Source: Chloroflexaceae bacterium
Lineage (GTDB): Bacteria; Chloroflexota; Chloroflexia; Chloroflexales; Chloroflexaceae
Assembly: GCA_028282325.1 (NCBI GenBank)
Contig: JANQID010000023.1
Span: forward strand, 1-40,221
Direction of reading: 5' to 3'
DNA: 40,221 nt
The notes under the pieces are model-generated. The model had not been told where the DNA came from and searched no databases. It saw nothing but the letters and a program-made list of their open reading frames with translations. A program made the position numbers and the translations under genes. This document shows, in pieces, positions 9,708 through 25,599 of the stretch (positions are counted from its first letter, which is position 1; each line of letters opens with the position of its first letter).

Positions 9708-11942
9708 TTACGAGTAGAGCGCCGCAATAACCAGCGGCGTAAGCAGGCCCTCAACCAACGATCCTGCCAGGATCATTGGAAGCAGCACGAACAGCCAGAT
9801 TTTGGTGAAATTCGCCAGCGCCCAGAGGACATTCTGGCCGGCGCTAAATCCCTTCGGCGGAGCCAGCAACGCCGCACCGATGCGCAGACCGATCGCCGCA
9901 CTGAGAATGAATGCCGGCAGCTCGATGATGCCATGCGGAAAGACGTAGGCCAGAATGAATTGTAGCGGACTATCTGCGCCCAAAGTCAGCCAGCTTCCGC
10001 CCTGATCCGCGAGGGCGCTGGACACAAAGCCGATCTGCGCGAAGGCTACAGCCGGCACCAGGAACGCGAATATGCCGAAACTAATCGCCGAGAAGACATT
10101 GGAAAGGATCGAGACGCGCAGGTTGTTGGCGAAAATCGCCAGCGCCAGCAGCGGCGATGGCGGCGGAGCGGCGCCGACCTGAGCCAGATAAGCGTCGAAC
10201 GCGCCGACATCATAATTGCTGCCCACATAGCCGCCGCTTAACATGCCGCTGATTGCCGCCAGCAATGCAACAGCGATCGGCAGCCGCAATTCATACAATA
10301 AGCGCGGAAGCTCCTGGCGGTAGAAACGCAGCGCCGACAACGGCAGACCTTGATAGAAATCGGGCGTAACCCCTGCCGGCTGATATTCATAGAAGAACAG
10401 CCGAAACGTATCTGTAATTCGCCGGAAGCTCAACTGCTCATGCTCGCGCGAGAGGATCTCCTCGCGATTAAACGCCGCCAGGCCCGCGCGGATGAGCGCC
10501 AGCGCGATGACGGCGAGCGCAGCGACAAGAAACCAGAGTACATCCCAACGCCGGGCGATGAATAACAGCGCCTGCAACTGAAGGATAATAGCCGAGGGGA
10601 TAAGCACAAAGCTGGCCAACAATGTCGCCGCACGCACGCTGCCGGTGTGGCTGGAGATCACCACCGCCCCGGAGACCATCACCAGCGTGATCATCATAAT
10701 CATCACCAGGATCTGAACCAGATGCAAAGGCGTCATCGCAATGGCATACAGATCGGGGAAGAACGTGGCAATGCCAAACAGAAACGCCAGCATCGCGATG
10801 ATGCTAGAAACCAATGGGATAACCAGGGCTGAGAAAAGCTTACTTATGTAAAGCTGTCTGTCGGTAATCGGCATTGACAGCAGCGCCTCCAGGCTATTGC
10901 GCTCACGTTCGCCGACGAACGACTCCAGCGCGGTGATCAGCGAAAAGCTGGCGGGAACAAAGCCGACCAGCAGTGCTGCAAACGGAACAAGCAAACCGAT
11001 TTGCGATGCACCGCCCAGAAAGCCAATCGCAAAGTTTACGCCCCCCACCAGCGCTGCCGGAAGCACGCATGTCAAAATGAATACTGGGATCAGCACCCGC
11101 CAGTCGGTCAACGTCTCGACCAATTCGCGGCGAGCGATGACCACAATCGGCGGCGAGCGCCGCGACGACGGACTCACCGCCGAAGGCCGGGCGCCGGGCG
11201 CGCCCCGTTGATGTTCGCGCGAGAGGATCTCCTCACGATTGAAGGTTGCCAGACCGGCACGCACTAGCAAGCCGGATAGTACGGCCAGACCCGCGCCGAC
11301 CAGCCAGAGCGATTCCCACCGCTGGTTGATGATCAACACTGCTTCAAGCTGCACCACCCCGGCCATCGGCAATAACACCATGCTGGACATCAGATTGGCG
11401 GCGCGAATGCTGCTGATGTGACTGGAAATCACCACCGCCCCGGCAACCATCGTCAGCGCCATTAATCCAACCAGCGCGAAGAGCAGCAACAGGCGCGGCA
11501 GCGTGATCGCGGCAAAATACAGATCCGGCGTAAACACATACAGCATGAAGGTGAATACCAACATCGCCGAGAAGCTGGAAATCAGCGGGATGACGAGCGA
11601 GGAATAGAGTTTGCTGATGTATAGATCGCGATCATCGATCGGCATCGACAGCAGCGCCTCCAGGCTGTTACGCTCACGCTCGCCGACGAACGACTCCAGC
11701 GCGGTGATGAGCGAAAAGCTCGCCGGCACAAACCCAACCAGCAGCGCCGCGAACGGCGTCAGCCGCCCGGCTAACTCGGCATCATCAACATAATTGACAA
11801 CCACCCGCGACGCGCCGACCAGCAGTTGGGGCAAAATGAATGTAAGCAACGCGATCGGCAGCACAATGCGCCAGTCACTCAATGTATCTCGCACCTCGCG
11901 CCGCATAATCGTTGCAATAGCGCTTGTTTTCATTGTTTGCAT
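9708..11942 (-). CDS. Three-module membrane protein: ABC-2 permease, ABC-2 permease, SpoIIM domain
   Basis: A 744-residue membrane protein. Residues about 8-235 and 265-500 are two copies of an ABC-2/NatB-like permease unit. Each contains PFAALLVGFVPASFSLITAL, an ESFVGERERNSLEALLSMPI segment and an LYISKL segment. Each copy ends with a FNREEILSREH motif. Residues about 540-740 are a SpoIIM/DUF95-type unit (RFYRQELPRLLYELR, FANNLRVSILSNVFSAISFG, YVFPHGIIELPAFILSAAIG). These units are normally separate proteins. The ATPase gene lies immediately upstream (its TAG ends one base before this ATG), so the pair forms one exporter-type ABC complex. Exported substrate unknown. The start at 11942 is coupled to that stop; an ATG at 11933 also exists. 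The two permease copies still share long stretches of DNA identity. Confidence 0.85.
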   Translation of the reverse strand: MQTMKTSAIATIMRREVRDTLSDWRIVLPIALLTFILPQLLVGASRVVVNYVDDAELAGRLTPFAALLVGFVPASFSLITALESFVGERERNSLEALLSMPIDDRDLYISKLYSSLVIPLISSFSAMLVFTFMLYVFTPDLYFAAITLPRLLLLFALVGLMALTMVAGAVVISSHISSIRAANLMSSMVLLPMAGVVQLEAVLIINQRWESLWLVGAGLAVLSGLLVRAGLATFNREEILSREHQRGAPGARPSAVSPSSRRSPPIVVIARRELVETLTDWRVLIPVFILTCVLPAALVGGVNFAIGFLGGASQIGLLVPFAALLVGFVPASFSLITALESFVGERERNSLEALLSMPITDRQLYISKLFSALVIPLVSSIIAMLAFLFGIATFFPDLYAIAMTPLHLVQILVMIMMITLVMVSGAVVISSHTGSVRAATLLASFVLIPSAIILQLQALLFIARRWDVLWFLVAALAVIALALIRAGLAAFNREEILSREHEQLSFRRITDTFRLFFYEYQPAGVTPDFYQGLPLSALRFYRQELPRLLYELRLPIAVALLAAISGMLSGGYVGSNYDVGAFDAYLAQVGAAPPPSPLLALAIFANNLRVSILSNVFSAISFGIFAFLVPAVAFAQIGFVSSALADQGGSWLTLGADSPLQFILAYVFPHGIIELPAFILSAAIGLRIGAALLAPPKGFSAGQNVLWALANFTKIWLFVLLPMILAGSLVEGLLTPLVIAALYS
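10867..10985. repeat. Intragenic DNA repeat, second permease unit
   Basis: About 119 bases nearly identical to 11638-11757. They encode the MPI(T/D)DR-LYISKL, ESFVGERERNSLEALLS and GFVPASFSLITAL regions of the second ABC-2 unit. Confidence 0.8.
11638..11757. repeat. Intragenic DNA repeat, first permease unit
   Basis: Partner of the 10867-10985 repeat in the same orientation, encoding the same segment of the first ABC-2 unit. Identity is concentrated here while the flanking transmembrane parts have diverged. Confidence 0.8.
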
Positions 11943-11943
11943 T

Positions 11944-12942
11944 CTAAGCTACACCCTCCGCTTCACGCCGCGCGCCGCTTGTTGACGCCGCCGCACGCGC
12001 ATGGTGCTCGCTGTCGAGCGCTTCCTGCTCGGCGACAATGCGCAAATACACATCCTCCAGACTGCGCTGCACCTCGGTGATGGCTACGACCGGCAGATGA
12101 TGATCAAGAAGTCGGCGGACAATGCGCGGATTGACGAGGTGCGGCTCTGCGCAACGGTAGCGTGACACCGTCGCATCAACATACTCGACGTGCGCCAGGC
12201 CATCGAGCAGGGGAACGACTGCGGCTGCCTGATGCGACGGCGCGACACGCACCTCCCAGACCGGATCGCCCAACAACTGGCGGGTGAGCTGCTCCAACGC
12301 GCCCTCGGCGATGATCCGGCCGCCGCAGATGATAGCGATCCGATCGGCCAGCGCCTCGGCCTCGGCCAGGTTATGGGTCGTTAGCAGAATCGAACGCTCG
12401 GTAGCGCGCAACTCGCCGATGGCGTCACGCACTACGCGGGCGCTCTGCGGATCCATCGCTGTCGTCGGCTCGTCGAGGAATAACACTGGCGGGTCGTGAA
12501 TGAGCGCACGAACCAGCGCGATCTTCTGGCGCATACCTTTGGAATAGCTGTCGAGGCGTTTATCGCGCGCTTCCCACAGGTCAAATTGCTTGAGCAACTT
12601 CTCGACGCGCATGCGTGCATCGACCGGATGCATATGCTGCAACGCACCGAAAAAATCGAGATATTCAACGGCGCGCATACGGCTATACAACCCCGGGTAC
12701 TCGGTCAGCAAGCCGATGTTGCTGCGTGCTGCCTGAGCATCACGCACCACGTCGTAGCCGTTGACGCGCGCCCAACCGCTGGTTGGTTTAAGAATTGCGC
12801 CGAGCATTCGCACCGTTGTGGTTTTGCCGGCGCCATTAGGGCCAAGCAGCGCAAGCAGCTCGCCGGGACGAATAGTTAAAGTTAAATCGCGTACGGCCTG
12901 AAACGCGCCGAATCGTTTACACAGTTCATGGGCTTCGATCAT
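11944..12942 (-). CDS. ABC-2-type exporter ATP-binding protein (NatA-like)
   Basis: Cytoplasmic ATPase that powers the neighbouring ABC-2/SpoIIM membrane protein. Walker A LLGPNGAGKTTTVRMLGAIL is near residue 40, the ABC signature is LDSYSKGMRQKIALVRAL, Walker B is PVLFLDEPTTAMDP and the switch His is in ILLTTHNLAEAEALADRI. About 332 residues, with a C-terminal tail after residue 220 typical of NatA/CcmA-type exporters. The start is the ATG at 12942, before the canonical IEAHELCKRFG; GAGGA lies 7-8 bases upstream. The frame stays open to 13101, but that extension has no family support. Its stop is one base from the permease ATG. Substrate unknown. Confidence 0.93.
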   Translation of the reverse strand: MIEAHELCKRFGAFQAVRDLTLTIRPGELLALLGPNGAGKTTTVRMLGAILKPTSGWARVNGYDVVRDAQAARSNIGLLTEYPGLYSRMRAVEYLDFFGALQHMHPVDARMRVEKLLKQFDLWEARDKRLDSYSKGMRQKIALVRALIHDPPVLFLDEPTTAMDPQSARVVRDAIGELRATERSILLTTHNLAEAEALADRIAIICGGRIIAEGALEQLTRQLLGDPVWEVRVAPSHQAAAVVPLLDGLAHVEYVDATVSRYRCAEPHLVNPRIVRRLLDHHLPVVAITEVQRSLEDVYLRIVAEQEALDSEHHARAAASTSGARREAEGVA

Positions 12943-13042
12943 ACTCGTTCCTCTTATTGATAGCTGGAATTGAGCGTCTTTCTGCGAAACAGACGACCAA
13001 TCCGTATGTATTGCACCAGGAAATCTGGACGAGACATTTGTA

Positions 13043-13067
13043 TTGCTGTAAAGCAGTATAGCAGCAA
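13043..13067. promoter_or_regulatory. Inverted repeat between divergent operons
   Basis: TTGCTG (13043-13048) and CAGCAA (13062-13067) frame an A/T-rich centre, and the site lies between the ABC ATPase (minus) and deacetylase (plus) genes. On the minus strand it contains -10-like TATACT and TACAAA boxes. It could be an operator or the ABC promoter; support is limited to symmetry and position. Confidence 0.3.
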
Positions 13068-13134
13068 CCGTTCGCTTATGCCTTACCAGTGTTGCGGCCA
13101 ATTAGTCCTATCTCGCAACGGGACGGCGCGCCCT

Positions 13135-13233: not shown

Positions 13234-15093
13234 ATGCGGAATCCGCGCTCTGGAATGATTTCACGACGTCTGCTGCTTGGCGCGACAATTGTTTGTTTGT
13301 TGGTAGGAGTATGGGGCTTGACAATCTTTGTTCAGCAGCGCATTGAACGCTGCGCATACGTCCCCCTCCTGGCCGACAACCTGCTCCCCAACGCCGATCT
13401 GGCAACGCCTGGCGCTGTCCCTGACATACCCCACGGCTGGGTCGCCGGCGCACCGGGCGTCCGGCTCGGCGATTTTGCTGTGGATGGCGACGGACGCGCC
13501 CTACAGTTGATCGGCATTGCCAACTATGTGCAAACACCGCCGATCTCCGTTGAGACAGGACGAAGCTACTGCTTCGATGGTCTCGCGATTACCGATGCGG
13601 CGAATCGCGGCTCGGCGACACGCTTGCAGGTAACATTCCACTGGTATAACGCTGCCAAACACGAGATTGCCGTTAACGCCACGACCTGGCAACCGGCCAC
13701 GCTCTGGCAGCCCAACAACCCGCCGGAACGCTGGTCGTCGATTTCTGCCGCATTTCAGGCTCCGCCGAAAGCCACAGAGTTGCTCATTCGCATCCATCCC
13801 GCATCCGACGATCGCGTCTACCTCGATGCAATGCACGTCCGGGCCGGCGGGCAGCCGCCCGTTACGAACTCCGAGCACGTCGTCGATTCTGACGCAACAC
13901 AGCCTAGCCTCGCACCCTGGCCCAACGGCAAACGCGCCGCCGTCGCCTTTACCTTCGATTGGGAAACGACGATGAGCGGATTGATACACTCGCGCTCGGT
14001 CGACGACCCGAATTTTACCAAGGATCCGGTGCAACGCGGCTTGCGTATGCGCGAAGGCATTACTACAACTCTGGCACTCTTTCAACCGTACAACATTCGC
14101 GCAACCTATTATGCTACCGGCTACAACTTTCTCATGGGCAATACAGCGCGCACGCAATATATGGATAACCCGACCTACGCCTGGGCCAGCACCGAGAATC
14201 GCTGGACCTCTGACCGCTGGCAAACCACGCCCTGGTTCGCCGATGACCCTTACGGCACAGTTGCAAGTCACCCGGCCTGGTATTTTGGCGATCTGACGCC
14301 GCTGCTTCAGCGCACCAACCAGGACATTCAGAGCCATACGTTTAGCCACTTTTACGGCGGCTTCGTCAACGCACACGATTGGCAAGCCGACTTCGCCGCC
14401 TGGAAGCAAGTCGCCGCCGAACGCAGCGTCCCGCCCGCGCGCTCGCTGGCTTTTCCGTGGAGCGGCAGCGGCGGGATGAGCGACGCCAGTTGGGATATGC
14501 TCGAAAGCGCCGGAATCACTTCCGTCACCCGCCTGAGCGATCAGTCGCAGTACAACCTGTTTCCGCGCGATGCGAGCGGACTGATCGCCGATCCGCGCTG
14601 CCGCCCGCTGCCCGGTCACGAACGCATCCTGGCCTGTCCCGACTTCTACCTCACGCCGCAGACCGCCGAACAGGCAATCGCCCAGATCGACGCCGCCCGC
14701 GCGGTTGGCGGGATGATCGACTTGTGGGCGCACACCGAGGAAGTGACATCGCCGGAGCAGATCGAGGCATGGCAGCGTGTGATTGATTATGTCGCCGGTC
14801 AGCCCGATGTCTGGATCGCGCCGTTGAGCGAGATTGCCGATTGGCAGCAGGCGCTCGAACACGCGCATATCACGATCATCGAACCGACGGCCGACGCTAA
14901 CCCGCTAGCCTTCCGCGTGACGAATAATGGTCAACGTGATCTGAACCGGCTGGCGCTGACGCTGCCTTTCTTGCCCACCCGTTTGACCGTCGATGGCGAC
15001 GAGCGCGGCGCGGCGTTAAGCGACCCGCCGACGCTTATCGTTGATCTGCGCGCTGGGCAAACGATGGAGGTGGAACTATGGCCGAAACTCTAG
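13234..15093 (+). CDS. Membrane-anchored polysaccharide deacetylase with N-terminal carbohydrate-binding-like domain
   Basis: About 619 residues. A signal anchor (LLLGATIVCLLVGVWGLTIF, about residues 12-32) places the rest outside the membrane. Next is a galactose-binding-like beta-sandwich (NLLPNADLATPGAVPDIPHG to VYLDAMHV), then a NodB-type deacetylase domain: TFDWE near 240-244 in place of the common TFDDG, and QSHTFSH with the metal-binding His pair near 368 and 372, then FPWSGSGGMS. A beta-rich C-terminal region follows. The Asp of TFDWE and the HxxxH pair fit a metal-dependent de-N- or de-O-acetylase. I start at the ATG at 13234; an ATG at 13255 is equally possible. The end overlaps the exporter fusion gene by 16 bases, so the enzyme probably edits the polymer exported by this locus. 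Confidence 0.85.
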   Translation: MRNPRSGMISRRLLLGATIVCLLVGVWGLTIFVQQRIERCAYVPLLADNLLPNADLATPGAVPDIPHGWVAGAPGVRLGDFAVDGDGRALQLIGIANYVQTPPISVETGRSYCFDGLAITDAANRGSATRLQVTFHWYNAAKHEIAVNATTWQPATLWQPNNPPERWSSISAAFQAPPKATELLIRIHPASDDRVYLDAMHVRAGGQPPVTNSEHVVDSDATQPSLAPWPNGKRAAVAFTFDWETTMSGLIHSRSVDDPNFTKDPVQRGLRMREGITTTLALFQPYNIRATYYATGYNFLMGNTARTQYMDNPTYAWASTENRWTSDRWQTTPWFADDPYGTVASHPAWYFGDLTPLLQRTNQDIQSHTFSHFYGGFVNAHDWQADFAAWKQVAAERSVPPARSLAFPWSGSGGMSDASWDMLESAGITSVTRLSDQSQYNLFPRDASGLIADPRCRPLPGHERILACPDFYLTPQTAEQAIAQIDAARAVGGMIDLWAHTEEVTSPEQIEAWQRVIDYVAGQPDVWIAPLSEIADWQQALEHAHITIIEPTADANPLAFRVTNNGQRDLNRLALTLPFLPTRLTVDGDERGAALSDPPTLIVDLRAGQTMEVELWPKL

Positions 15094-16910
15094 GCCAGAA
15101 CGCGCCAACCATCAACCAACAGACGCGAGGCTGGGTCGGCGCATTGATCAGCCAGCGGGCAGGGCTGCGGATCTACCAATGGTTATGGATCGTGCTCTGC
15201 ACGATCGGCGCGCTGGCGGCTGCCGCGCCGCGCATCCTTTCACAACCTGTCATCTACATGAGTAGCGCCGCCGTCCAGATCGACATCGGCGGACGCTATC
15301 ACGAACTCTACACCGACGGCAAACCCGACGCCGATTTTATCGCGGTTCAGCACATCACTTTTGAGCTTCTGCGCGTGCAATATCCCGAACTCGGATCACC
15401 AACGCTCCATGTGCGCTTTGAACCGCATTCCAACGGCAGCATCGATGTCATCGCCGTCGGCTCCAGCGCCATCGAAGCTCAGATGCTCGCAGACAGCGCC
15501 GCCGAAGAACTGGCCCGCAGCGTTCGCGCCGCCGGCGGGCGCGAGATTTTGCGCAACCTGCTCGGCTGGGAATTGGCAGCCGCGCTGCGCGGCGATGCAC
15601 CGGAAACCCCGTTCCAGAGCTTTCTGCGCGAGATCATTCGTACCGGCGTTTTCTCGCTCAACCGACCCATCGAACCGGTGTCGCAGCACATCACTGCCGA
15701 TGAACTCGCCGCGCCGGAACTGAGCGACCTGACGCGCGCGCTCGAAGTAGGTGAAGTCCAGACGCGCATCTATACGCTGCCTGCGCTGGGATTGCAACTC
15801 GCCACGGCGGAGGGTGCGGTCGCCGAACAAATCACCCGCGATCAGCAACGGCTCACCGACGGATTGCAAGCCATTCGCGACGCGCTGAATTACCTTTACG
15901 TCAACCACGACGCGCGGTTCGATCCAACCGTTCCCTCGGATGCATTCCGAAGCGCGCCGGCCTTCCTGCCAGCCGCGCCGGAGAATCGCATGATCCCCTG
16001 GCTGCTCGGATTAACCGTTCTGTTCGGATTACTCTTTGGTCTGCTTGGCGTCATCGTTGATCGCTCGGCCGGCGTTATGTCCAAGGCGCGTGAATTATGG
16101 TTCTACCGCGAACTTATCCGCAACCTGGTGCTGCGCGATCTTCGCGTGCGCTACAAAGGCAGCGCGCTCGGCTATCTCTGGACGCAACTGGCGCCGCTGC
16201 TGCTGATGCTAGTTTTCTGGTTTGTGTTCAGCGTGTTTTTCCAATCCGGCATCGCCATGTTCGCTGTATTCCTAATCGTCGGCCTGCTGGTCTGGAACTA
16301 TTGCGCCGAGTCGGTGAGCGGCGGGACGCGCAGCATCATCGACAACTCAAACCTGATCAAGAAGGTCTTCTTTCCACGAGAAGTATTGCCGCTGGTAAAC
16401 GTTTTCTCAGGACTGCTCAACTACATTTTGTCGCTGCCAACGATGCTGCTGGTGATGGCGGTTGTGCAACTGCTCTACTCGCCGTTGCAGGGATCGTTGA
16501 ATTTCTCGTGGACGATGGCATATTTGCCGATCCTGCTGATCATCCAGACGATCTTTCTCGCCGGCGTTACGCTGTTTACAAGTTCGCTCGCCGTGTTCTT
16601 TCGCGACGCCGTCCACCTGATCGGGATCATCATTCAGTTCTGGTTTTTCCTAACCCCGGTGCTATATTCGCTGGACGCAATTGATGCAACCATCGCCCGC
16701 ATCATCCGCTGGGTCAACCCGATGGCGTCGCTGGTCGATTTCTACCGCGAGATCTTGTATGGCAACACCGTCGCCGATGGCTTGATTCCTACGCCCGGAC
16801 TGCCCGCGCTCACCAGCGTGCTGCGCGTATTGATTACGTCGATCATCGTTTTGGCACTTGGCTACTGGTTCTTCCAGCGCAATAGCGGGCGGTTCGGCGA
16901 GGAGATTTAA
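15078..16910 (+). CDS. Wzz-like chain-length domain fused to Wzm-type polysaccharide ABC exporter permease
   Basis: A 610-residue fusion. Part one resembles a polysaccharide co-polymerase: TM1 about residues 33-53, an extracytoplasmic stretch to about 304 (VIYMSSAAVQIDIGG, TLHVRFEPHSNGSIDVIAV, coiled-coil-like AEQITRDQQRLTDGLQAIRD), and TM2 about 305-328. Part two, about 340-610, is a complete ABC-2 exporter permease of the Wzm/KpsM/TagG type (RDLRVRYKGSALGYLWTQLA, NLIKKVFFPREVLPLVNVFS, NPMASLVDFYREILYG). The frame is continuous and no ribosome site precedes the internal Met at 334, so this is a real fusion. The start follows a strong GGAGGTGG and overlaps the deacetylase gene. Wzt follows at 16999. 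In characterised ABC-dependent capsule systems the co-polymerase is a separate protein; here chain-length control and export are apparently joined. Confidence 0.85.
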   Translation: MAETLGQNAPTINQQTRGWVGALISQRAGLRIYQWLWIVLCTIGALAAAAPRILSQPVIYMSSAAVQIDIGGRYHELYTDGKPDADFIAVQHITFELLRVQYPELGSPTLHVRFEPHSNGSIDVIAVGSSAIEAQMLADSAAEELARSVRAAGGREILRNLLGWELAAALRGDAPETPFQSFLREIIRTGVFSLNRPIEPVSQHITADELAAPELSDLTRALEVGEVQTRIYTLPALGLQLATAEGAVAEQITRDQQRLTDGLQAIRDALNYLYVNHDARFDPTVPSDAFRSAPAFLPAAPENRMIPWLLGLTVLFGLLFGLLGVIVDRSAGVMSKARELWFYRELIRNLVLRDLRVRYKGSALGYLWTQLAPLLLMLVFWFVFSVFFQSGIAMFAVFLIVGLLVWNYCAESVSGGTRSIIDNSNLIKKVFFPREVLPLVNVFSGLLNYILSLPTMLLVMAVVQLLYSPLQGSLNFSWTMAYLPILLIIQTIFLAGVTLFTSSLAVFFRDAVHLIGIIIQFWFFLTPVLYSLDAIDATIARIIRWVNPMASLVDFYREILYGNTVADGLIPTPGLPALTSVLRVLITSIIVLALGYWFFQRNSGRFGEEI

Positions 16911-16998: not shown

Positions 16999-18243
16999 AT
17001 GACAATCATTGAATTCGCCAACGTATCCAAACGTTTCATCTTGCACCTGAACCGACCGCGTTCGTTCCGCGATCGGCTGACCGGGATATTCAGTTCAAAC
17101 ACCCACGGCGAGGAGTTCTGGGCGCTGCGCGATGTCAGCTTTAAGATTGAGAAAGGGCAAAGCCTGGGGCTGATCGGACACAACGGCGCCGGCAAAAGCA
17201 CAGCGCTCAAGCTGATGACGCGTATTTTAGAGCCGACGAGCGGGCAGGTGCGAATGCGCGGGCGTGTGGCGGCGCTGCTTGAGTTGGGCAGCGGCTTCCA
17301 CCCCGACTTGAGCGGGCGCGAGAACGTATTTCTCTACGGTTCGTTGATGGGCTTCAGCCGCCGCGATATGCTGGCCCGCCTCGACGAAATCGTCGATTTC
17401 GCCGACATCGGCGAATTCATCGACACCGAGATCAAACACTATTCATCGGGAATGTACACACGCCTGGCGTTTGCCGTCGCCACAGCCGTTGATCCCGAAA
17501 TCCTGATCACCGACGAGGTGCTGGCCGTCGGCGATGAGGCATTTCAGCGCAAATGCATGGAGCGGATCTACAGCTTTCGCCAGGCCGGCAAAACAATCAT
17601 CTTCGTTTCACACGCATTGGAGATCGTGCGCTCACTCTGCGATCACGCAGTCTGGCTCGATCGCGGCGAGGCGCGGTGCGTCGGAACCGCCGACGAGGTC
17701 ATTGACTCCTATCTCCAGGAAACAAACCGGCGCGAAGCCAGGGAGCGCCAACGCCACACCACAGCGCAAAGCTGGGAAGACGCCGACGCCGAGCAGAGCA
17801 AGCGCTGGGGAACGCGCGAGATTGAGATCAAGCATATCGAGCTGCTCGGTCCAAAAGGAACGCCCCAGGATCTGTATTACACGGGCGAGCCTTTGACCAT
17901 TCGCTATCATTACCGGGCGAATATCCCAATCAACGACCCTCAATTTGGGCTAGCCATCTATCACGGCTCCGGCGTACATGTTACCGGCCCGAACAATCGC
18001 TTTTCCGGCTATCCCATCGCATCGGTACACGGAAGCGGGATCGTTGATTACACCATTCCCAACTTACCGCTCCTCCCCGGTATGTACTACTTGACGGTCG
18101 CCGTTCATGACGCGAATGGTCTCGTCACGTTCGACCATCATGAGCGTGCATACAGATTTACCGTGCGCTCGCACTCGCTCAAGACCAGTTACGGCCTGAT
18201 CGAACTCCCGGCGCGCTGGGTTCACGCAGCCACAGATGGGTAA
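16999..18243 (+). CDS. Wzt-type polysaccharide exporter ATPase with C-terminal carbohydrate-binding domain
   Basis: ATP-binding subunit for the Wzm-type permease. Residues 1-245 are the ATPase: SLGLIGHNGAGKSTALKLMT (Walker A, about 56-70), the family-specific HYSSGMYTRLAFAVAT signature and EILITDEVLAVGDEAFQRK (Walker B). Residues about 275-405 form a beta-rich Wzt C-terminal domain (EIKHIELLGPKG, GLAIYHGSGVHVTGPN, LLPGMYYLTVAVHD), which in O-antigen Wzt proteins binds the finished chain end. The full length of about 414 residues matches long-type Wzt. The start is the ATG at 16999 before TIIEFANVSKRF; the frame is open further upstream but has no homology there. The stop overlaps the next GT start by 8 bases. 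This supports a mechanism in which chain recognition gates export. Confidence 0.93.
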   Translation: MTIIEFANVSKRFILHLNRPRSFRDRLTGIFSSNTHGEEFWALRDVSFKIEKGQSLGLIGHNGAGKSTALKLMTRILEPTSGQVRMRGRVAALLELGSGFHPDLSGRENVFLYGSLMGFSRRDMLARLDEIVDFADIGEFIDTEIKHYSSGMYTRLAFAVATAVDPEILITDEVLAVGDEAFQRKCMERIYSFRQAGKTIIFVSHALEIVRSLCDHAVWLDRGEARCVGTADEVIDSYLQETNRREARERQRHTTAQSWEDADAEQSKRWGTREIEIKHIELLGPKGTPQDLYYTGEPLTIRYHYRANIPINDPQFGLAIYHGSGVHVTGPNNRFSGYPIASVHGSGIVDYTIPNLPLLPGMYYLTVAVHDANGLVTFDHHERAYRFTVRSHSLKTSYGLIELPARWVHAATDG

Positions 18244-19732
18244 CGCGGAAACGCCTATGCCACCACGCATTTTGCTTGTCAGCACAGATCGCGTCGGCGC
18301 ATCGATGGCCGGCCCAGGCATTCGAGCCTGGGAGCTCGCCCGATCGTTGTCACGCGTTGGCGCCGTCACGCTGGCTGTACCGGATTCCAGCGACATGCAG
18401 ACGAACGACATGCGCCTGATTACCTACGGCTCCGACCGACCACGCGCCCTCGCCGAAGCATTAACACGCGCCGATGTGGTCATCGGTCAAGGCTTTGTGT
18501 TTGAGTCCCATCCCGGACTCCTGACCACCGATCTGCCGCTGGCAATCGATCTCTACGATCCACTGATCCTTGAAAGCCTCGATCTCTATGCCAACGAAGA
18601 TCTAGCAACAGCCCAGGCCCAACATACGCGCTATCAGGCCTTGACCGAGGCGCTGCTGCGGCGCGGCGACTTTTTCTTCTGCGCGACCGAAACACAACGC
18701 GACTACTGGCTTGGCGCACTCACCGCAACAGGTCGCATCACGCCTGAGCTGGCGCGCCAGGCCGACCGCGATTTGCGCTCGCTGATCGATTGCGTTCCCT
18801 CCGGCCTGACAGAACAGCCGCCGGAGGCCATAACGCCCGTGTTGCGCGGCGTACATCCCGCCATCGCCGACGACGACTTCGTCTTGCTCTGGGCCGGCGG
18901 CCTGTGGGACTGGTTCGATCCCGACGTCATCGTTCGCGCAATGGCGGCATTGCACAACGAGTATCCACATCTGCGGCTATGCTTCTTCGCCGGCCCGCGT
19001 CCCAATCCACGCGGCGATCCATTTCGCACGCGCGTCTATGATCGCGTTCGCGCGCTGGCTGCCGAGCTTGGCATACTCGACACGGCGGTCATCTTCCTCG
19101 ACGAATGGATCGCCTATAATAAGCGCGGCGCATACCTATACGAGGCCGATGTCGGCGTATCAGCGCACCGGCCCGGCATCGAAACGCGCTTTGCATTTCG
19201 CACACGGCTGCTCGATTACCTGTGGGCACGGCTGCCGGTTGTATGCACCGCCGGTGACAGTCTCGGCGAGACCATCGCGCAAAACGGCGTGGGCGCGCTC
19301 GTTCCGGCTGGCGATGTCGAGGGTTGGATCGCAGCGCTCCGTCGGATGATCGACCAGCCGGATCTGCGCGCCGATTGTCGTTCCGCCGCCGATGCATTGG
19401 CCCGGCGCTACATCTGGTCGCGCGTTGCGGAGCCGCTGGCGGCATTCTGTCAACATCCACGCCGCACAGCGCCGCGCAAAACGGCGCCGGCAGCAACCGA
19501 GCGCATAGCCGAATTGGAGCGCGCATTAGAGGAGCGACTACGTTATACACGACACGTGGAAGCGCAATACCAGGCCGCCATCGCCCAGAATCGAACGTTC
19601 ATCGGCAAATTCTTTTCTATCGCGCAGCGCCTGTTGCATGCCAGGAACCAACGCCCACAAAACGACGCTTCGGGCGATGACCGCAATAAACGCGCCCAAG
19701 GCAACCAGCCGCAAGAAGGTGAAACATCGTGA
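18236..19732 (+). CDS. GT4-like glycosyltransferase with helical C-terminal tail (paralogue 1)
   Basis: Cytoplasmic GT-B-fold glycosyltransferase, about 498 residues. N-domain motif ILLVSTDRVGASMAGPGIRA; C-domain LLWAGGLWDWFDPDVIVRAM, a VIFLDEWIAYNKRGAYLYEA segment and DVGVSAHRPGIETRFAFRTR, where GT4 enzymes bind the nucleotide sugar. It is a close paralogue of the next gene, sharing the same order of motifs throughout. The tail (about 420-470, TERIAELERALEERLRYTRH) looks coiled-coil, followed by an amphipathic FIGKFFSIAQRLLHARNQ. The start at 18236 overlaps the Wzt stop; an ATG at 18257 is also plausible. It ends with a GTGA overlap to the next gene. Donor and acceptor sugars are unknown. 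Confidence 0.85.
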   Translation: MGNAETPMPPRILLVSTDRVGASMAGPGIRAWELARSLSRVGAVTLAVPDSSDMQTNDMRLITYGSDRPRALAEALTRADVVIGQGFVFESHPGLLTTDLPLAIDLYDPLILESLDLYANEDLATAQAQHTRYQALTEALLRRGDFFFCATETQRDYWLGALTATGRITPELARQADRDLRSLIDCVPSGLTEQPPEAITPVLRGVHPAIADDDFVLLWAGGLWDWFDPDVIVRAMAALHNEYPHLRLCFFAGPRPNPRGDPFRTRVYDRVRALAAELGILDTAVIFLDEWIAYNKRGAYLYEADVGVSAHRPGIETRFAFRTRLLDYLWARLPVVCTAGDSLGETIAQNGVGALVPAGDVEGWIAALRRMIDQPDLRADCRSAADALARRYIWSRVAEPLAAFCQHPRRTAPRKTAPAATERIAELERALEERLRYTRHVEAQYQAAIAQNRTFIGKFFSIAQRLLHARNQRPQNDASGDDRNKRAQGNQPQEGETS

Positions 19733-21513
19733 CCGAGCCATCGACAACGCCATCGAACCAGCCACACCTGCTGATCATTAGTCACGATGTGATCGGCGCG
19801 CGTATGGCCGGGCCGGGGATTCGCTACTGGGAACTGGCTCACGTCATCGCCGCGCACCAGCCCGTGACGCTGATCGCCCCACAACCGATTGATCGCGCAT
19901 CGCCGACAGTGGAAACCGGCAACTACGCCTGGGGTGACGCCGAATCGCTTGCGCGATGGGTGCAGGACGCCGATGTCGTGCTGGCGAACGGCTTTGTGCT
20001 GCCAGCGCATCCGGAACTGACCGCCATGACTCAGCCGTTGGCAATCGATCTATACGACCCGACTCTGCTGGAGAATCTGGAACTCGTGCGCACCGAACCG
20101 CCGGAACGACGCAGCGTGCAGAGCCAGCACGACATTGCCGCGCTCAAAGCGCAGTTGACCGCCGGCGACTTCTTCCTCTGCGCAACCGAGCGCCAGCGGG
20201 ATCTGTATCTCGGCGCGTTGATGGCTGTGGGACGTATCACGCCCGACGCCGTCGAGCACGATCCGTTGCTGCGCAACTTGATTGACATTTTGCCGTTTGG
20301 TCTCCCTGCCGAACCGCCGGTCAAGCGCGCACCGGCGCTCCGCAGCGTGGTTCCCGGCATCAGCGCCGACGACAGGCTCATTCTGTGGACCGGCGGTCTG
20401 TGGGATTGGATGGATCCGCTGACGCTGATTCGGGCGCTGCCCCACATCGTCGCTCAGCATCCAGATGTGCGGCTCGTTTTTTTATCCGGCCAACATCCTG
20501 GATCGATCCACCCGATGCACGCTCCCAACGAGGCCCGCGCGTTGGCCGAATCGTTCGGACTGATCGATAAGCACATTTTTTTCTATGACGACTGGATCCC
20601 ATACGCGCAACGCGCCGACTTCCTGCTCGAAGCCGACATCGCCGTCTCGCTGCACCGGAATCACCTCGAAACGGCATATGCCGCGATTCGCTCGCGGTTT
20701 CTTGATCATCTCTGGACCGGCTTGCCCAGTGTGGTAAGCGATGGCGATGCAGCATCGAGCCTGGTGCGTGAATATAGACTGGGGCAGGTTGTCCCTTCTG
20801 GGGACGTAGAACGCACTGCCGAGGCGCTGGACGCGTTGCTGCGCGATCCTGACAAACGACACGCATGCGCCGCGCGTGCGCGCGAACTCGCAGCCCGTTA
20901 TATCTGGGAGCGCGTCGCCGAACCGCTGATTGCCTTCAGTTTGCAACCTCGAACTACACGACCGCAAACCATCGCCTCAACCGCATCGCCAACGCCAACG
21001 CCGCCAGCCACACCGCTAACGCCAACGCCAGCCGCACCGACGCTGGACGATTTCATTCGTGAAACGCAGCAAACCACCCAGGCGTATGATGCATCACGCA
21101 ACGCAATACTTCAAACGCTGGAGCCGCAACGCCAGATCCACGAACCGAGCTTGCCCGGCGGAATAATCGGGCGGCTGCGCAATCTGCTGATCCGTCAATT
21201 GGTGCGCCCTTTCGTCGCGCCATTGATCGAGCGTCAGAATGCCTACAACGCCGCTGTGACGCGCGGTCTGAACGCGCTGGCAGAAAACAGCGACATTCGC
21301 CGCGCCGAAACCTATACGCTCGTGAATAGCCTCAGCGGCTACCTTGCCGCGCAAGCAGCGCTGATCGGCCCGATTCACACGCGGCTTGACGATATCGAGC
21401 GTCGCCTCGCGCATTTGGATGAACAACTGCGCGACGCCTATGACGCCGACACGTCGCTCGCCGAACGCATCGCCGATATGGCTGCTTCCGCTGAGCGCAA
21501 GGAGGACGTGTGA
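19729..21513 (+). CDS. GT4-like glycosyltransferase with Pro/Thr linker and tail module (paralogue 2)
   Basis: 594 residues. The catalytic GT-B part (about 1-405) parallels the preceding GT: LLIISHDVIGARMAGPGIRY, LILWTGGLWDWMDPLTLIRA, IFFYDDWIPYAQRADFLLEA, DIAVSLHRNHLETAYAAIRS. A Pro/Thr-rich linker (TASPTPTPPATPLTPTPAAP, about 418-440) leads to a helical tail of about 150 residues containing GIIGRLRNLLIRQLVRPFVA, PLIERQNAYN and a coiled-coil-like RLDDIERRLAHLDEQLRDAY. The start codon is GTG at 19729 in a GTGA stop-start overlap, with a GAAGGTG ribosome site. The next GT starts in a TGATG overlap, so all are translationally coupled. The tail may tether the enzyme to the membrane or to partner GTs (inference). 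Confidence 0.85.
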   Translation: MTEPSTTPSNQPHLLIISHDVIGARMAGPGIRYWELAHVIAAHQPVTLIAPQPIDRASPTVETGNYAWGDAESLARWVQDADVVLANGFVLPAHPELTAMTQPLAIDLYDPTLLENLELVRTEPPERRSVQSQHDIAALKAQLTAGDFFLCATERQRDLYLGALMAVGRITPDAVEHDPLLRNLIDILPFGLPAEPPVKRAPALRSVVPGISADDRLILWTGGLWDWMDPLTLIRALPHIVAQHPDVRLVFLSGQHPGSIHPMHAPNEARALAESFGLIDKHIFFYDDWIPYAQRADFLLEADIAVSLHRNHLETAYAAIRSRFLDHLWTGLPSVVSDGDAASSLVREYRLGQVVPSGDVERTAEALDALLRDPDKRHACAARARELAARYIWERVAEPLIAFSLQPRTTRPQTIASTASPTPTPPATPLTPTPAAPTLDDFIRETQQTTQAYDASRNAILQTLEPQRQIHEPSLPGGIIGRLRNLLIRQLVRPFVAPLIERQNAYNAAVTRGLNALAENSDIRRAETYTLVNSLSGYLAAQAALIGPIHTRLDDIERRLAHLDEQLRDAYDADTSLAERIADMAASAERKEDV

Positions 21514-22478
21514 TGCGCGCAGCCGTGATCATCCTCAGTTGGAACGGCGCAGATCATCTGGCCGATTGTCTTGACTCCGTGCAGGGGCAACGTAACAACA
21601 ACGCTCTTACGGTTGTCGTCGATAATGGATCGGAGGACGATTCTGTTGCAATAGCCCGTCAGCATAACGACGTGCAGGTGATCGAGAACAGACGCAATCT
21701 GGGCTTCGCGGCAGGTATGAACGTGGGAATTCGTTGGTTGCGCAGCCTTGTGCAGCTGCCCAATGTCGTCGTGTTGCTCAACCAGGACACGATCGTCGCA
21801 CCTGACTGGCTGCACAACCTGATCGAACCCCTGGCGCATGATCAACAGATCGCCGCCGTCGGCTGCAAAATCTACTACCCTGACGGAAAGACATTGCAAC
21901 ACGCCGGGGGCTGGCTTGATCCGGCCCGCGCGTTGTCATACCATTTCGGGCACCAAGAGCGCGACGAAGGTCAGTATGACCAACCACGCGATGTCGAGTA
22001 CGTCACGGGCGCATCGATGGCGCTGCGTATGAGCGCTCTCGATGAGGTCGGCCTACTTGATGAGGGCTATAGTCCGGCCTATTTTGAAGAAGTCGATCTC
22101 TGTTGGCGGCTGCGGCGATCGGGCTATCGCGTTCACTATACGCCTGGCGCCACGCTGCGCCATGTCGAGTCGAGTTCAATCCGCGATCCGGTTGCGCGCA
22201 ATACGCTGGCCCATCGCAACCGATTGCGTTACATATATAAGACATTCCCATTTGAACGCATCCGCGTCGATTTTATGACCGCCGAACGCTTGCGCCTGGC
22301 GTCTCTTCCACACAGCCTGGAGCGGCGAATTCTCCGCCGGGCTTACCTGGAAGGCATACTCCGGCGCGAGGAATGGCTCACCGCTCGCGCCGCGTTCTAT
22401 CCGATCAGCGACGATGAAGCCGAGCAACTCCGACACATCTGCATCGAGTTGCGAGCGGCAGCCGGCAACCATATATAA
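21513..22478 (+). CDS. GT2-family glycosyltransferase, WbbL/rhamnosyltransferase-like
   Basis: A 321-residue GT-A-fold transferase. VIILSWNGADHLADCLDSV and VVVDNGSEDDSVAIARQHND are the nucleotide-binding N-terminus, LNQDTIVAPDWL holds the metal-binding DxD-like region, and YVTGASMALRMSALDEVGLL with DEGYSPAYFEEVDLCWRLRR holds the catalytic ED region of the rhamnosyl-type GT2 group. The start is the ATG at 21513, sharing a base with the previous stop (TGATG) behind GGAGG. Transfer of a deoxyhexose such as rhamnose is suggested only by family resemblance. Confidence 0.88.
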   Translation: MRAAVIILSWNGADHLADCLDSVQGQRNNNALTVVVDNGSEDDSVAIARQHNDVQVIENRRNLGFAAGMNVGIRWLRSLVQLPNVVVLLNQDTIVAPDWLHNLIEPLAHDQQIAAVGCKIYYPDGKTLQHAGGWLDPARALSYHFGHQERDEGQYDQPRDVEYVTGASMALRMSALDEVGLLDEGYSPAYFEEVDLCWRLRRSGYRVHYTPGATLRHVESSSIRDPVARNTLAHRNRLRYIYKTFPFERIRVDFMTAERLRLASLPHSLERRILRRAYLEGILRREEWLTARAAFYPISDDEAEQLRHICIELRAAAGNHI

Positions 22479-22493
22479 GCATTGGTGAACACC

Positions 22494-23951
22494 ATGACGA
22501 ATCCTTCCGATACCACTATGCAGCGAATGCATGCACGCTACGCATTCGCCGGCCCAACGCCGACAGCCAGGCTGGATCTTCCATTGCTGCTGCCGATTAG
22601 CGTCACAAACACCGGCGCGGCCACCTGGCCCAATCGCGGCCCAAACCCGGTGAATATCGCCTACCACTGGCTCGACGCCAACGGCCAGGTTGTCGATTTC
22701 GAGGGATTGCGCACGCCACTGCCCGGAGCAGTCCCCCCCGGCGAAACGATCGAGCTTGAGGTTCAGATCGAACCGCCGCCGCATCCCGGCGATTATCAAC
22801 TGGCGATTGACCTGGTCGAAGAAGGTATAGATTGGTTTATGATTCAGGGCGTCGAGCCGCTGAAAATCCCACTCACCGTTGCGCCGCCCGACGAACTGCC
22901 GCGTGCATGCATCATCAACGGCAACTGTATGGTCAACGACGCGGTAGGCAATCATGTCGTCAACCAGTTGCGCTTCTTCCAGAATCGCGGCTATCGAACG
23001 TTAACCCTGGTAGAGCATATCGATCCGCGCCAACCGGCCAGTTTGCGCCAGAACATTTTGCCCATCACCCTCGACGAATTGCGCGACGGGCCATCGATCG
23101 GGCCGACGCGCCGAGCGGTTCATCATTTCCGCAGCGCCGACATCTACATTTTTAACTATTCTACCTACTACACGCTGGTTGATGCTATCCGGCTGGTCGG
23201 GAACGGCATCGTCGTTTTCGACTACCACGGCGTAACGCCGCCCCACCTCTGGGATGGGCCAGGCGTCGAACACCTAATCGAAGGCCAGCGAAACCTCGAA
23301 CTGGTGCGCTACGCCGATTACGCGATCGGGCATAGCGGATTTACACGCCAGGAGTTGCTGAACACCGGGTTAATTGCGCCGGAACGCGTATATCAGATGC
23401 CCTACGTCGTACCTTTGGAGCGCTTCCGCCCCGGCCCGCGCGCACCCGAACTGCTGGAGCGCTACGGCCTGACCGATGATCAGCCCGTGCTGCTATATGT
23501 CGGTCGGATGGCCACGAACAAGCGGATCGATGTGCTCGTACGCGCACTCATTGAAATCCGCGAACACATCCCCAACGCCGTCCTGATGTTGGTCGGCGAC
23601 AATCGCTCGCAGGCATACGCTCGCGCAACGAGCCAGGCGCGCGACATCGCCGCAGCATCGGGCATCGCAGACGGTTTAATCTTCACCGGGCAAATCCCCG
23701 ATAGCGAATTGGCGGCGCACTACCAACTCGCCAGCGTATTTGTCACCGCCAGTCTGCACGAAGGCTTTTGCATCCCGGTATTGGAAGCGATGAGCTGCGG
23801 AACCCCCGTGGTTGGAGCGCATGCTACAGCGCTGCCCGAAACGATCGGCGCGGCCGGCTTGACATTTGAGCCGGGAAATGCTCGCGATCTCGCGCACAAA
23901 ATACTGGCGGTTTTGGGACACATGACATTGGAATCAACAGAGCAAGCATAG
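22494..23951 (+). CDS. GT4 glycosyltransferase with N-terminal beta-sandwich domain
   Basis: About 485 residues. Residues about 10-130 form an Ig-like beta-sandwich (LLLPISVTNTGAATWPN, IAYHWLDANGQVVDFEGL, LPGAVPPGETIELEVQIEPP, GDYQLAIDLVEEGIDWF). This resembles modules attached to other GTs, methyltransferases and Wzt proteins. The rest is a canonical GT4 with VLLYVGRMATNKRIDVLVRA, LIFTGQIPDSELAAHYQLA and ASLHEGFCIPVLEAMSCGTP (E-x7-E motif). Starts at 22482 (TTG), 22485 (GTG) and 22494 (ATG) are all in frame; I list the ATG. The gene is 15 bases or less from its neighbour. The sandwich might bind the growing glycan, but a cytoplasmic location is assumed because there is no signal peptide. Confidence 0.87.
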   Translation: MTNPSDTTMQRMHARYAFAGPTPTARLDLPLLLPISVTNTGAATWPNRGPNPVNIAYHWLDANGQVVDFEGLRTPLPGAVPPGETIELEVQIEPPPHPGDYQLAIDLVEEGIDWFMIQGVEPLKIPLTVAPPDELPRACIINGNCMVNDAVGNHVVNQLRFFQNRGYRTLTLVEHIDPRQPASLRQNILPITLDELRDGPSIGPTRRAVHHFRSADIYIFNYSTYYTLVDAIRLVGNGIVVFDYHGVTPPHLWDGPGVEHLIEGQRNLELVRYADYAIGHSGFTRQELLNTGLIAPERVYQMPYVVPLERFRPGPRAPELLERYGLTDDQPVLLYVGRMATNKRIDVLVRALIEIREHIPNAVLMLVGDNRSQAYARATSQARDIAAASGIADGLIFTGQIPDSELAAHYQLASVFVTASLHEGFCIPVLEAMSCGTPVVGAHATALPETIGAAGLTFEPGNARDLAHKILAVLGHMTLESTEQA

Positions 23952-23958
23952 GATTAGG

Positions 23959-25599
23959 ATGCGGATGCAGGTTGATACGTTCGCCTATGGCACAAAGCAG
24001 CGAATCGGTTTTGTTACGCCACGCTACGGTATCGAGGTCGTCGGCGGCGCGGAAAGGCTGGTGCGCGGCACAGCCGAGCAACTCGCCGCACGCGGCTACG
24101 CTGTTGAAGCCTTCGCAACTTGCGTGCTGAACATCCACGAGTGGCGTGATCACTACCCGCCCGGCGATGAGATGGTCAACGGCGTCCTGGTGCATCGCTT
24201 CCCGCTCGATCCGGTCGATCTCGGCCAGTTGCAACGAACGACGCAGAAAGCGATGGCCGGAGAGCGCGTGGCCTATAGCGAGCAGCTTCAGTTCGTTCAG
24301 CAAAGCGTGAATAGCCAGCCGCTTTTCCACAGCTTGCGCGAACGCCAGAACGACTTCGCGTGCTTCATCTTCGCCCCGTATATGTTTGGCACAACCTATT
24401 GGGGCGTCAAAGTCGTACCCGACAAGGCGATACTCTTGCCATGTCTCCATAACGAACCGTATGCTCACTTCATCATTTACCGCGAATTGATCGAAGAAGT
24501 GCGCGGGGTAATCTTCAACGCCGAGGCCGAGCGTCGTTTCGCCATGAACGGTATGGGAATGGTCAACCCGCACACCGCTGTCGTTGGATATGGTTTTGAA
24601 CCGCCGCCCGTCGGTAACAGCGAGCATTTCCGCCGTCAACGAAACCTGCCGTCCCAATTTATTTTGTACAGCGGACGGCTGGAGTCGGGCAAAAACGTCC
24701 CCCTGTTGATCGACTATTTCACACGCTACAAAACCGAGCGGCCATCAGACCTGGCGCTGGTCTTCACCAATGATCGCGGCGACGTCACGCCGCCGCCACG
24801 ATCGGACATCGTGAGTCTGGGCTTTCTCAGCGAGGAAGATTTGCACAATGCCTATGCCGCCGCAACGACGCTTTGCCAACCCTCAGTCAATGAGAGCTTC
24901 TCGATCGTGATGATGGAGGCATGGCTGCAACACACCCCTGCCCTCGTCCATACCGACTGCGCCGTCACCAGCGATCATGTTCGACAGAGCGGCGGCGGAT
25001 GGACCTTTCGCACCTACGAGGAATTCCGCGCCGCGCTCGATCAAATTCTGGGCGATCCAGATGAAAGCCGCCGCCGTGCACAGGCCGGATGCGCCTATGT
25101 GCAACAGCAGTACAACTGGGATGCCGTCATCGAACGGCTAGTCAATGCATTAAAGCGTTTTATGCAACCGCGCAGTCTCGCCGAACAGTTGGCCCAGAAT
25201 GGCATCCGGCATGCGCTCGACTTCTCCCGTGAACGATTTGACGATCAGTTTACACGCGTCATCGAACGCGCCGAGGCCGATCTCGCTCAGGGGTTGACCC
25301 ACGATCAGATCGGCGCACTGCGCCAGGCAGCGCGCATAGCAATGCCCGACTACCAGGTTCAATCGAATATTCCGGTCATTGGCAAGTTTATCGCCTGGCT
25401 CCGCCGCCATCTCACCTCACATCTGCGCGAACCCTATATTGACCCGATCATTTCGCGCCAGGAGGTGTATAATACCCATATGCTCAATACGCTCTTGCCC
25501 GCGCTCGAACGCAGTTTGCGCGAACAACGCCGCCTGAGTCGCGAGATCGAACTGTTGCGCAAGCAGCTTGCCCACACACCGCAACGCAGCGACGACTGA
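23959..25599 (+). CDS. GT4 glycosyltransferase with C-terminal tail module
   Basis: 546 residues. The N-domain starts IGFVTPRYGIEVVGGAERLV (GT4 acceptor-side motif with GGAE); the C-domain has LPSQFILYSGRLESGKNVPL, VSLGFLSEEDLHNAYAAATT and PSVNESFSIVMMEAWLQHTP (E-x7-E). After about residue 440 comes a helical tail: NIPVIGKFIAWLRRHLTSHL, then REPYIDPIISRQEVYNTHML and the coiled-coil-like RSLREQRRLSREIELLRKQL. This tail has the same layout as that of the GT ending at 21513. The start is the ATG at 23959 behind AGGATTAGG. It is the last gene of the locus; no obvious hairpin terminator follows it. Confidence 0.88.
   Translation: MRMQVDTFAYGTKQRIGFVTPRYGIEVVGGAERLVRGTAEQLAARGYAVEAFATCVLNIHEWRDHYPPGDEMVNGVLVHRFPLDPVDLGQLQRTTQKAMAGERVAYSEQLQFVQQSVNSQPLFHSLRERQNDFACFIFAPYMFGTTYWGVKVVPDKAILLPCLHNEPYAHFIIYRELIEEVRGVIFNAEAERRFAMNGMGMVNPHTAVVGYGFEPPPVGNSEHFRRQRNLPSQFILYSGRLESGKNVPLLIDYFTRYKTERPSDLALVFTNDRGDVTPPPRSDIVSLGFLSEEDLHNAYAAATTLCQPSVNESFSIVMMEAWLQHTPALVHTDCAVTSDHVRQSGGGWTFRTYEEFRAALDQILGDPDESRRRAQAGCAYVQQQYNWDAVIERLVNALKRFMQPRSLAEQLAQNGIRHALDFSRERFDDQFTRVIERAEADLAQGLTHDQIGALRQAARIAMPDYQVQSNIPVIGKFIAWLRRHLTSHLREPYIDPIISRQEVYNTHMLNTLLPALERSLREQRRLSREIELLRKQLAHTPQRSDD

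Follow-up and report, generated by a model that had tools for sequence, protein, structure and literature searches.

A single open reading frame of the window (the whole analysed stretch of 40,221 nucleotides from a Chloroflexaceae bacterium) encodes a 610 amino-acid protein that assembles a domain of the Wzz/polysaccharide co-polymerase (PCP) fold (residues ~25-331) and a complete permease of the Wzm/KpsM/TarG type (residues 343-610). The frame is uninterrupted on the plus strand, from an ATG at 15078 to a stop ending at 16910, and its first 16 bases overlap with the 3' end of the gene upstream. An earlier note on this DNA had read it as one 610-residue frame with the PCP plan followed by a complete Wzm/KpsM permease; the open frame, the kinship, the fold and the ABC2_membrane match all bear this out. 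Both halves are of known kinds. As far as the open literature searched shows, there is no published description of a PCP-Wzm fusion, of the 1:1 ratio that it imposes or of its use in the absence of an outer membrane. The protein is organized as follows, from the 5' to the 3' end:

15066-15073, plus strand: ribosome-binding site GGAGGTGG, read from the sequence, just 5' of the ATG at 15078
15078-16910, plus strand: PCP-Wzm fusion protein, 610 aa, one open frame, kept as a single frame in relatives
15171-15239, plus strand: putative TM1 of the PCP domain, residues 32-54, a helix in the predicted models
15240-15992, plus strand: extracytoplasmic PCP dome and crown, residues 55-305, from the AlphaFold2 model and Foldseek
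15993-16070, plus strand: TM2 of the PCP domain, residues 306-331, from the alignment and predicted models
16059-16103, plus strand: TM2-permease joint, residues 328-342, from the alignment of fused homologues
16104-16910, plus strand: Wzm/KpsM/TarG-type ABC-2 permease, residues 343-610 and stop, from PF01061 and VIA-align

Judged by profiles, residues ~25-331 are distant sequence relatives of Wzz (PF02706), a kinship that emerges only from family HMMs and from comparing profile with profile and fold with fold. When residues 1-335 were scanned as a single sequence, neither Pfam nor NCBIfam returned a match over the cut-off, the top-ranked family being Pfam Wzz, far under it; phmmer and profile searches of the PDB sequences with the N-terminal part matched no PCP. 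Within an alignment of 31 homologous N-terminal parts (A2), Pfam Wzz is the family matched by most members (best E 0.0053). Against a profile of 39 Wzz-family proteins from the source and related genomes, the N-terminal profile reached a probability of 96.6 and a score of 72.8, compared with at most 20.1 for 100 column-shuffled profiles and 23.3 for the reversed profile. The ectodomain without its TM helices gave a probability of 94.2 and a score of 51.5 (controls at most 15.9), and the tail at the C-terminal end of the PCP part reached no more than 26-27% in hhalign on its own. An HMM of these Wzz-family proteins matches the fused Herpetosiphon protein (L106) over residues 23-294, from TM1 to TM2 (E 1.9e-5), and in the reverse direction a PF02706 protein (G037:C2:677064) is among the second-tier matches of the A2 profile. 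The Wzz similarity proposed for the N-terminal part thus stayed under the cut-off in the single-sequence Pfam search and was recovered by profile-profile comparison and the family HMM.

The AlphaFold2 model of residues 1-335 (pLDDT 92.6, pTM 0.84) has the predicted plan of PCPs: TM1, an alpha/beta dome with a helical crown, and TM2. The dome strands comprise residues 60-68, 110-116, 121-128 and 289-293, and the long crown helices residues 131-170, 212-243 and 246-277. The position of TM1 is a probable one, based on the sequence and on structure alignments with KpsE and WzzE; in TM2, G317 is invariant and G321 near-invariant across homologues. All 50 best Foldseek matches in the PDB are PCPs (WzzE, Wzc, KpsE, WzzB), and KpsE (8tun_K) superposes at 4.5 Å over 195 residues in the range 29-335. 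VIA-align yields Z values of 8-9 for PCPs, and MoaC, an unrelated small dome, reaches 8.5; what carries the fold claim is therefore the Foldseek ranking together with the coverage from TM1 to TM2. The crown is longer by about 16-20 residues in 18 of 34 aligned homologues (from L014-L035, e.g. L026, L028 and L032); these possess exactly two cysteines in the pattern DALC...C, absent from the window's protein, and a disulphide at the crown tip is possible.

The permease half opens with the interface helix, and its residues 347-561 match ABC2_membrane (PF01061) over the cut-off (E 3.6e-14), as the earlier note had anticipated. Its best sequence relative of solved structure is the Wzm permease 6m96 (E 4.6e-17), and its fold aligns to those of TarG, Wzm and KpsM with VIA-align Z values of 22-27. 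In an alignment of 34 fused homologues, down to 35% identity (A1), the segment that starts at G317 of TM2 and ends at R344 of the interface helix counts exactly 28 residues in all 34 sequences, whereas the crown varies between 92 and 131 residues. Pairs of these homologues share on average 39% identity across the PCP part, against 52% across the joint and 60% across the permease. In the KpsMT-KpsE structure, the TM2 helices of KpsE form the inner ring, and the TM2 end fits a pocket that KpsM forms from TM3 and TM6 together with the N-terminal portion of its interface helix (PMC11041684). As KpsE contacts KpsM at this place, the fusion would covalently link segments that, judging from the published structure, touch each other in the unfused complex.

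The fusion is widespread and intact in its order. Among related genomes, source included, 52 of 61 contain a near-full-length match and 58 some match, while across the 82 genomes analysed of the order Chloroflexales the PCP part is strongly matched in 72. Frames of at least 570 aa harbor 64 of these 72 matches. The eight shorter ones consist of seven that reach contig ends (three were fetched and checked, and the others begin at most 6 bases from the contig end) and one, in G005, that is frameshifted within the PCP half. The PCP half never occurs as a separate gene among the 72 matches in these 82 genomes, and it is fused to the permease in every homologue with a complete frame; no split pair was found of the kind that, in close relatives, would have betrayed two distinct genes. 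Among the named genera that carry the fusion are Chloroflexus, Roseiflexus, Oscillochloris, Chloroploca, Viridilinea and Herpetosiphon. Elsewhere in the class Chloroflexia there is one carrier, the deep-branching Chloroflexia bacterium isolate Zod_Metabat.323 (G087, L108), and in a sample of 400 genomes across the phylum all 39 strong matches fall in the order. The frameshift in G005, a MAG, affects locus L047 (G005:C250, 7197-9241, minus strand), near the conserved AAGGREILRNLLGWEL stretch, and is either real or an assembly error.

Among the 80 best loci of a scan of all genomes, nearly all from Chloroflexota, the unfused permeases closest to the fused ones are about 260 to 380 aa long and belong to Ardenticatenaceae, Anaerolineae and Caldilineaceae. 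A tree built from 85 permease domains, 30 of them fused, places the fused ones on one side of a branch with support of 99, and that of isolate Zod_Metabat.323 is the first branch among them. Since the fused permeases form one clade, a single origin of the fusion is the simplest reading of the tree. Several independent fusions within the phylum were considered and rejected, as the permease tree displays one change.

Could the N-terminal part be an unrelated two-TM ectodomain rather than a PCP? The lack of Pfam or NCBIfam matches over the cut-off, the PDB sequence search devoid of PCPs and the VIA-align Z values, no higher for PCPs than for MoaC, would all agree with it. Such a reading is nevertheless very improbable in view of the profile-profile scores, which exceed those of the shuffled and reversed controls with or without the TM helices, of the Wzz HMM match from TM1 to TM2 and of the Foldseek top 50. 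On these lines and on the AlphaFold2 model, the outcome that the earlier note had named as fatal to its claim, residues 30-330 devoid of PCP similarity or fold, did not materialize. The joining of two separate genes by a sequencing or assembly error has a negligible probability: the frame is single in 64 genomes of the order, some of them in single contigs, the fused permeases form one clade, and the sole frameshift falls within the PCP half, away from the joint. Conservation of the single frame across the order rules out an assembly artefact.

The fusion is located within a set of genes, all on the plus strand, related to glycan synthesis, modification and export:

13234-15093, plus strand: polysaccharide deacetylase-like (NodB-type) protein, membrane-anchored and extracytoplasmic, from phmmer and conservation
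16999-18243, plus strand: Wzt, an ABC ATPase (PF00005, E 2.7e-22) with a C-terminal glycan-binding domain, Wzt_C (PF14524, E 3e-30)
18236-25599, plus strand: five glycosyltransferase genes (GT4/GT2 types) after wzt, from Pfam Glycos_transf_1, Glyco_trans_1_4 and Glycos_transf_2

The upstream protein resembles the polysaccharide deacetylase 3rxz (phmmer E 2.2e-6). Its ORF opens at 12970; homologues start near residue 89-97, and the start is therefore likely 13234 or 13255. A homologue is present in 73 of the 82 genomes of the order, mostly adjoining the fusion on its upstream side, and none was found beside unfused permeases; in G039, the gene is on a different contig from the fusion. Wzt directly follows the fusion in the window and in most relatives. 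Most of the partner Wzts checked carry Wzt_C. The domain has no match in the full-length Wzts adjoining the fusion at L038 (5611-6828) and L044 (10689-11939), which belong to one side lineage (g21 of family f4) and may recognise another chain end. In the Roseiflexus genome G042, the best-matching Wzt, which is the closest to that of the window (60% identity; G042:C1:1070690-1071892, L198 and L230), is an orphan: about 3.1 Mb separate it from the fusion, and no permease gene is in its vicinity. Gene order is thus an incomplete guide to partners. Pfam scans of the window revealed no Wzy gene.

Two further genes of the window border this set. On the 3' side of the glycosyltransferases, 26313-28310 (plus strand) encodes a protein of 665 aa that contains FG-GAP and beta-propeller repeats and may be a secreted surface protein. 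On the other side, 9708-11942 (minus strand) encodes a protein of 744 aa in which two stretches resembling ABC-2 permeases precede a SpoIIM domain; it adjoins its own ABC ATPase (11944-13101, minus strand) and represents another multi-domain membrane fusion beside the locus.

The carrier bacteria appear to lack an outer membrane. Neither OPX (PF02563; Wza/KpsD) nor Omp85 (PF01103) has a match in the source genome, both families being detected in diderm controls, which fits the guess of the earlier note that no LPS-type outer membrane is present. With neither of them, the PCP part has no outer-membrane pore to lead to, unlike KpsE. The source genome contains five other Wzz-family matches, all on other contigs and distantly similar to the fused domain, and no free PCP is encoded in the fusion neighbourhoods examined. 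The same genome also possesses a conventional unfused Wzm-Wzt pair (G000:C118:40000-59900, L049), with a Wzz-family gene about 9 kb away. A tandem pair of short Wzz-type proteins, of about 217 and 232 aa (G000:C115:11283-12251, L004 and L005), is present in several related genomes too.

We propose, as a reading for which the arguments are about evenly balanced, that the tethered PCP, present at 1:1 with the permease, acts as a vestibule built in at the exit and as a docking module instead of a length ruler. Two copies of the fusion and two Wzt would assemble as a (PCP-Wzm)2(Wzt)2 exporter, in which Wzt_C would recognise the lipid-linked glycan in the cytoplasm and the Wzm dimer would move it across the membrane. 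The two PCP domains, next to the channel mouth on the outer side of the membrane, would form a vestibule guiding the emerging chain and may dock partners outside the cytoplasm. The likeliest of these is the deacetylase, whose gene overlaps the fusion upstream, a link drawn from gene order alone. Without an outer membrane, the bridging task of KpsE to the outer-membrane pore would fall away, and a tethered domain at 1:1 would replace the free eight-subunit cage. In an engineered strain, KpsE was dispensable for inner-membrane translocation (PMC11041684), and a role of the PCP after translocation is thus likelier than one in the transport step. Against the vestibule, two PCP domains alone cannot close an eight-membered ring of the KpsE type. 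More tentatively, and with doubt prevailing, the protein might represent a fourth kind of PCP, a 1:1-tethered exit vestibule coupling export to extracytoplasmic deacetylation or wall attachment in bacteria without an outer membrane.

A true chain-length regulator, sensing or limiting length as Wzz does for Wzy polymerases, was the view of the earlier note; we regard it as quite unlikely, even though the PCP half descends distantly from Wzz and length in ABC-dependent capsules is presumed to result from synthesis and export combined (PMC12220298). The window lacks, in the Pfam scans, the Wzy gene that such a regulator would accompany. Polymerisation takes place at the cytoplasmic face in ABC-dependent pathways, hence away from the PCP domain, which makes length control less likely. 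The PCPs of ABC exporters, such as KpsE, are not known to set chain length. The partner Wzt, besides, carries Wzt_C, described as the chain-end reader of O-antigen systems (PMC9445017). What stands of the "chain-length regulator fused to permease" is therefore the fused PCP, the regulator label being weakened by KpsE-type PCPs and by Wzt_C. It is unlikely, albeit conceivable, that the tethered PCP pair seeds a KpsE-like octamer with separate Wzz proteins or with the PCPs of neighbouring exporters, in which case the fusion would cluster exporters or nucleate a cage. A KpsE octamer does surround one KpsMT (PMC11041684), and the five other Wzz-family matches of the source genome could provide subunits; their genes, however, are on other contigs and only distantly similar to the fused domain, and the fusion neighbourhoods examined contain no free PCP.

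Whether or not the vestibule and docking reading holds, two proteins known only as separate partners are here one polypeptide, and every channel subunit carries its own helper, at a PCP:permease ratio fixed at 1:1 instead of the 8:2 of the solved KpsMT-KpsE complex. A PCP retained on an ABC exporter in a genome without an outer-membrane channel indicates that outer-membrane bridging is separable from other PCP roles. Chain-length control in ABC-dependent export is said to need further investigation (PMC12220298), and the constant joint within a single gene makes the role of the PCP in this export addressable by one truncation.

The KpsM-KpsT-KpsE capsule exporter (PDB 8tsh, 8tun) likewise brings these two folds together in one membrane complex, and the window's protein is covalently joined at the place where KpsE TM2 touches the KpsM interface helix (PMC11041684). 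KpsE, a class-3 PCP, is however a separate protein, with eight copies around two KpsM, whereas here each permease has one PCP; KpsE leads to the outer-membrane pore KpsD, whereas the source genome offers no OPX partner. With neither a separate encircling protein nor an OPX partner, the fusion falls outside the strict PCP-3 (KpsE) definition. KpsT is not described with Wzt_C, unlike the Wzt of the window, which in this respect resembles that of the O-antigen exporter, with its C-terminal glycan-binding domain. The Wzm-Wzt O-antigen exporter (7k2t, 6m96) and TarGH (9cfl, 6jbh) share the permease fold (Z 22-27) but have no PCP attached, Wzm beginning directly at its N-terminal segment and interface helix. 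Finally, Wzz and Wzc (WzzE 6rbg, WzzB 3b8p, Wzc 7nhr; PF02706) have in common with residues ~25-331 the predicted fold and a distant kinship. They partner Wzy polymerases and are free or fused to a tyrosine kinase, whereas the PCP of the window is fused to its partner, an ABC permease.
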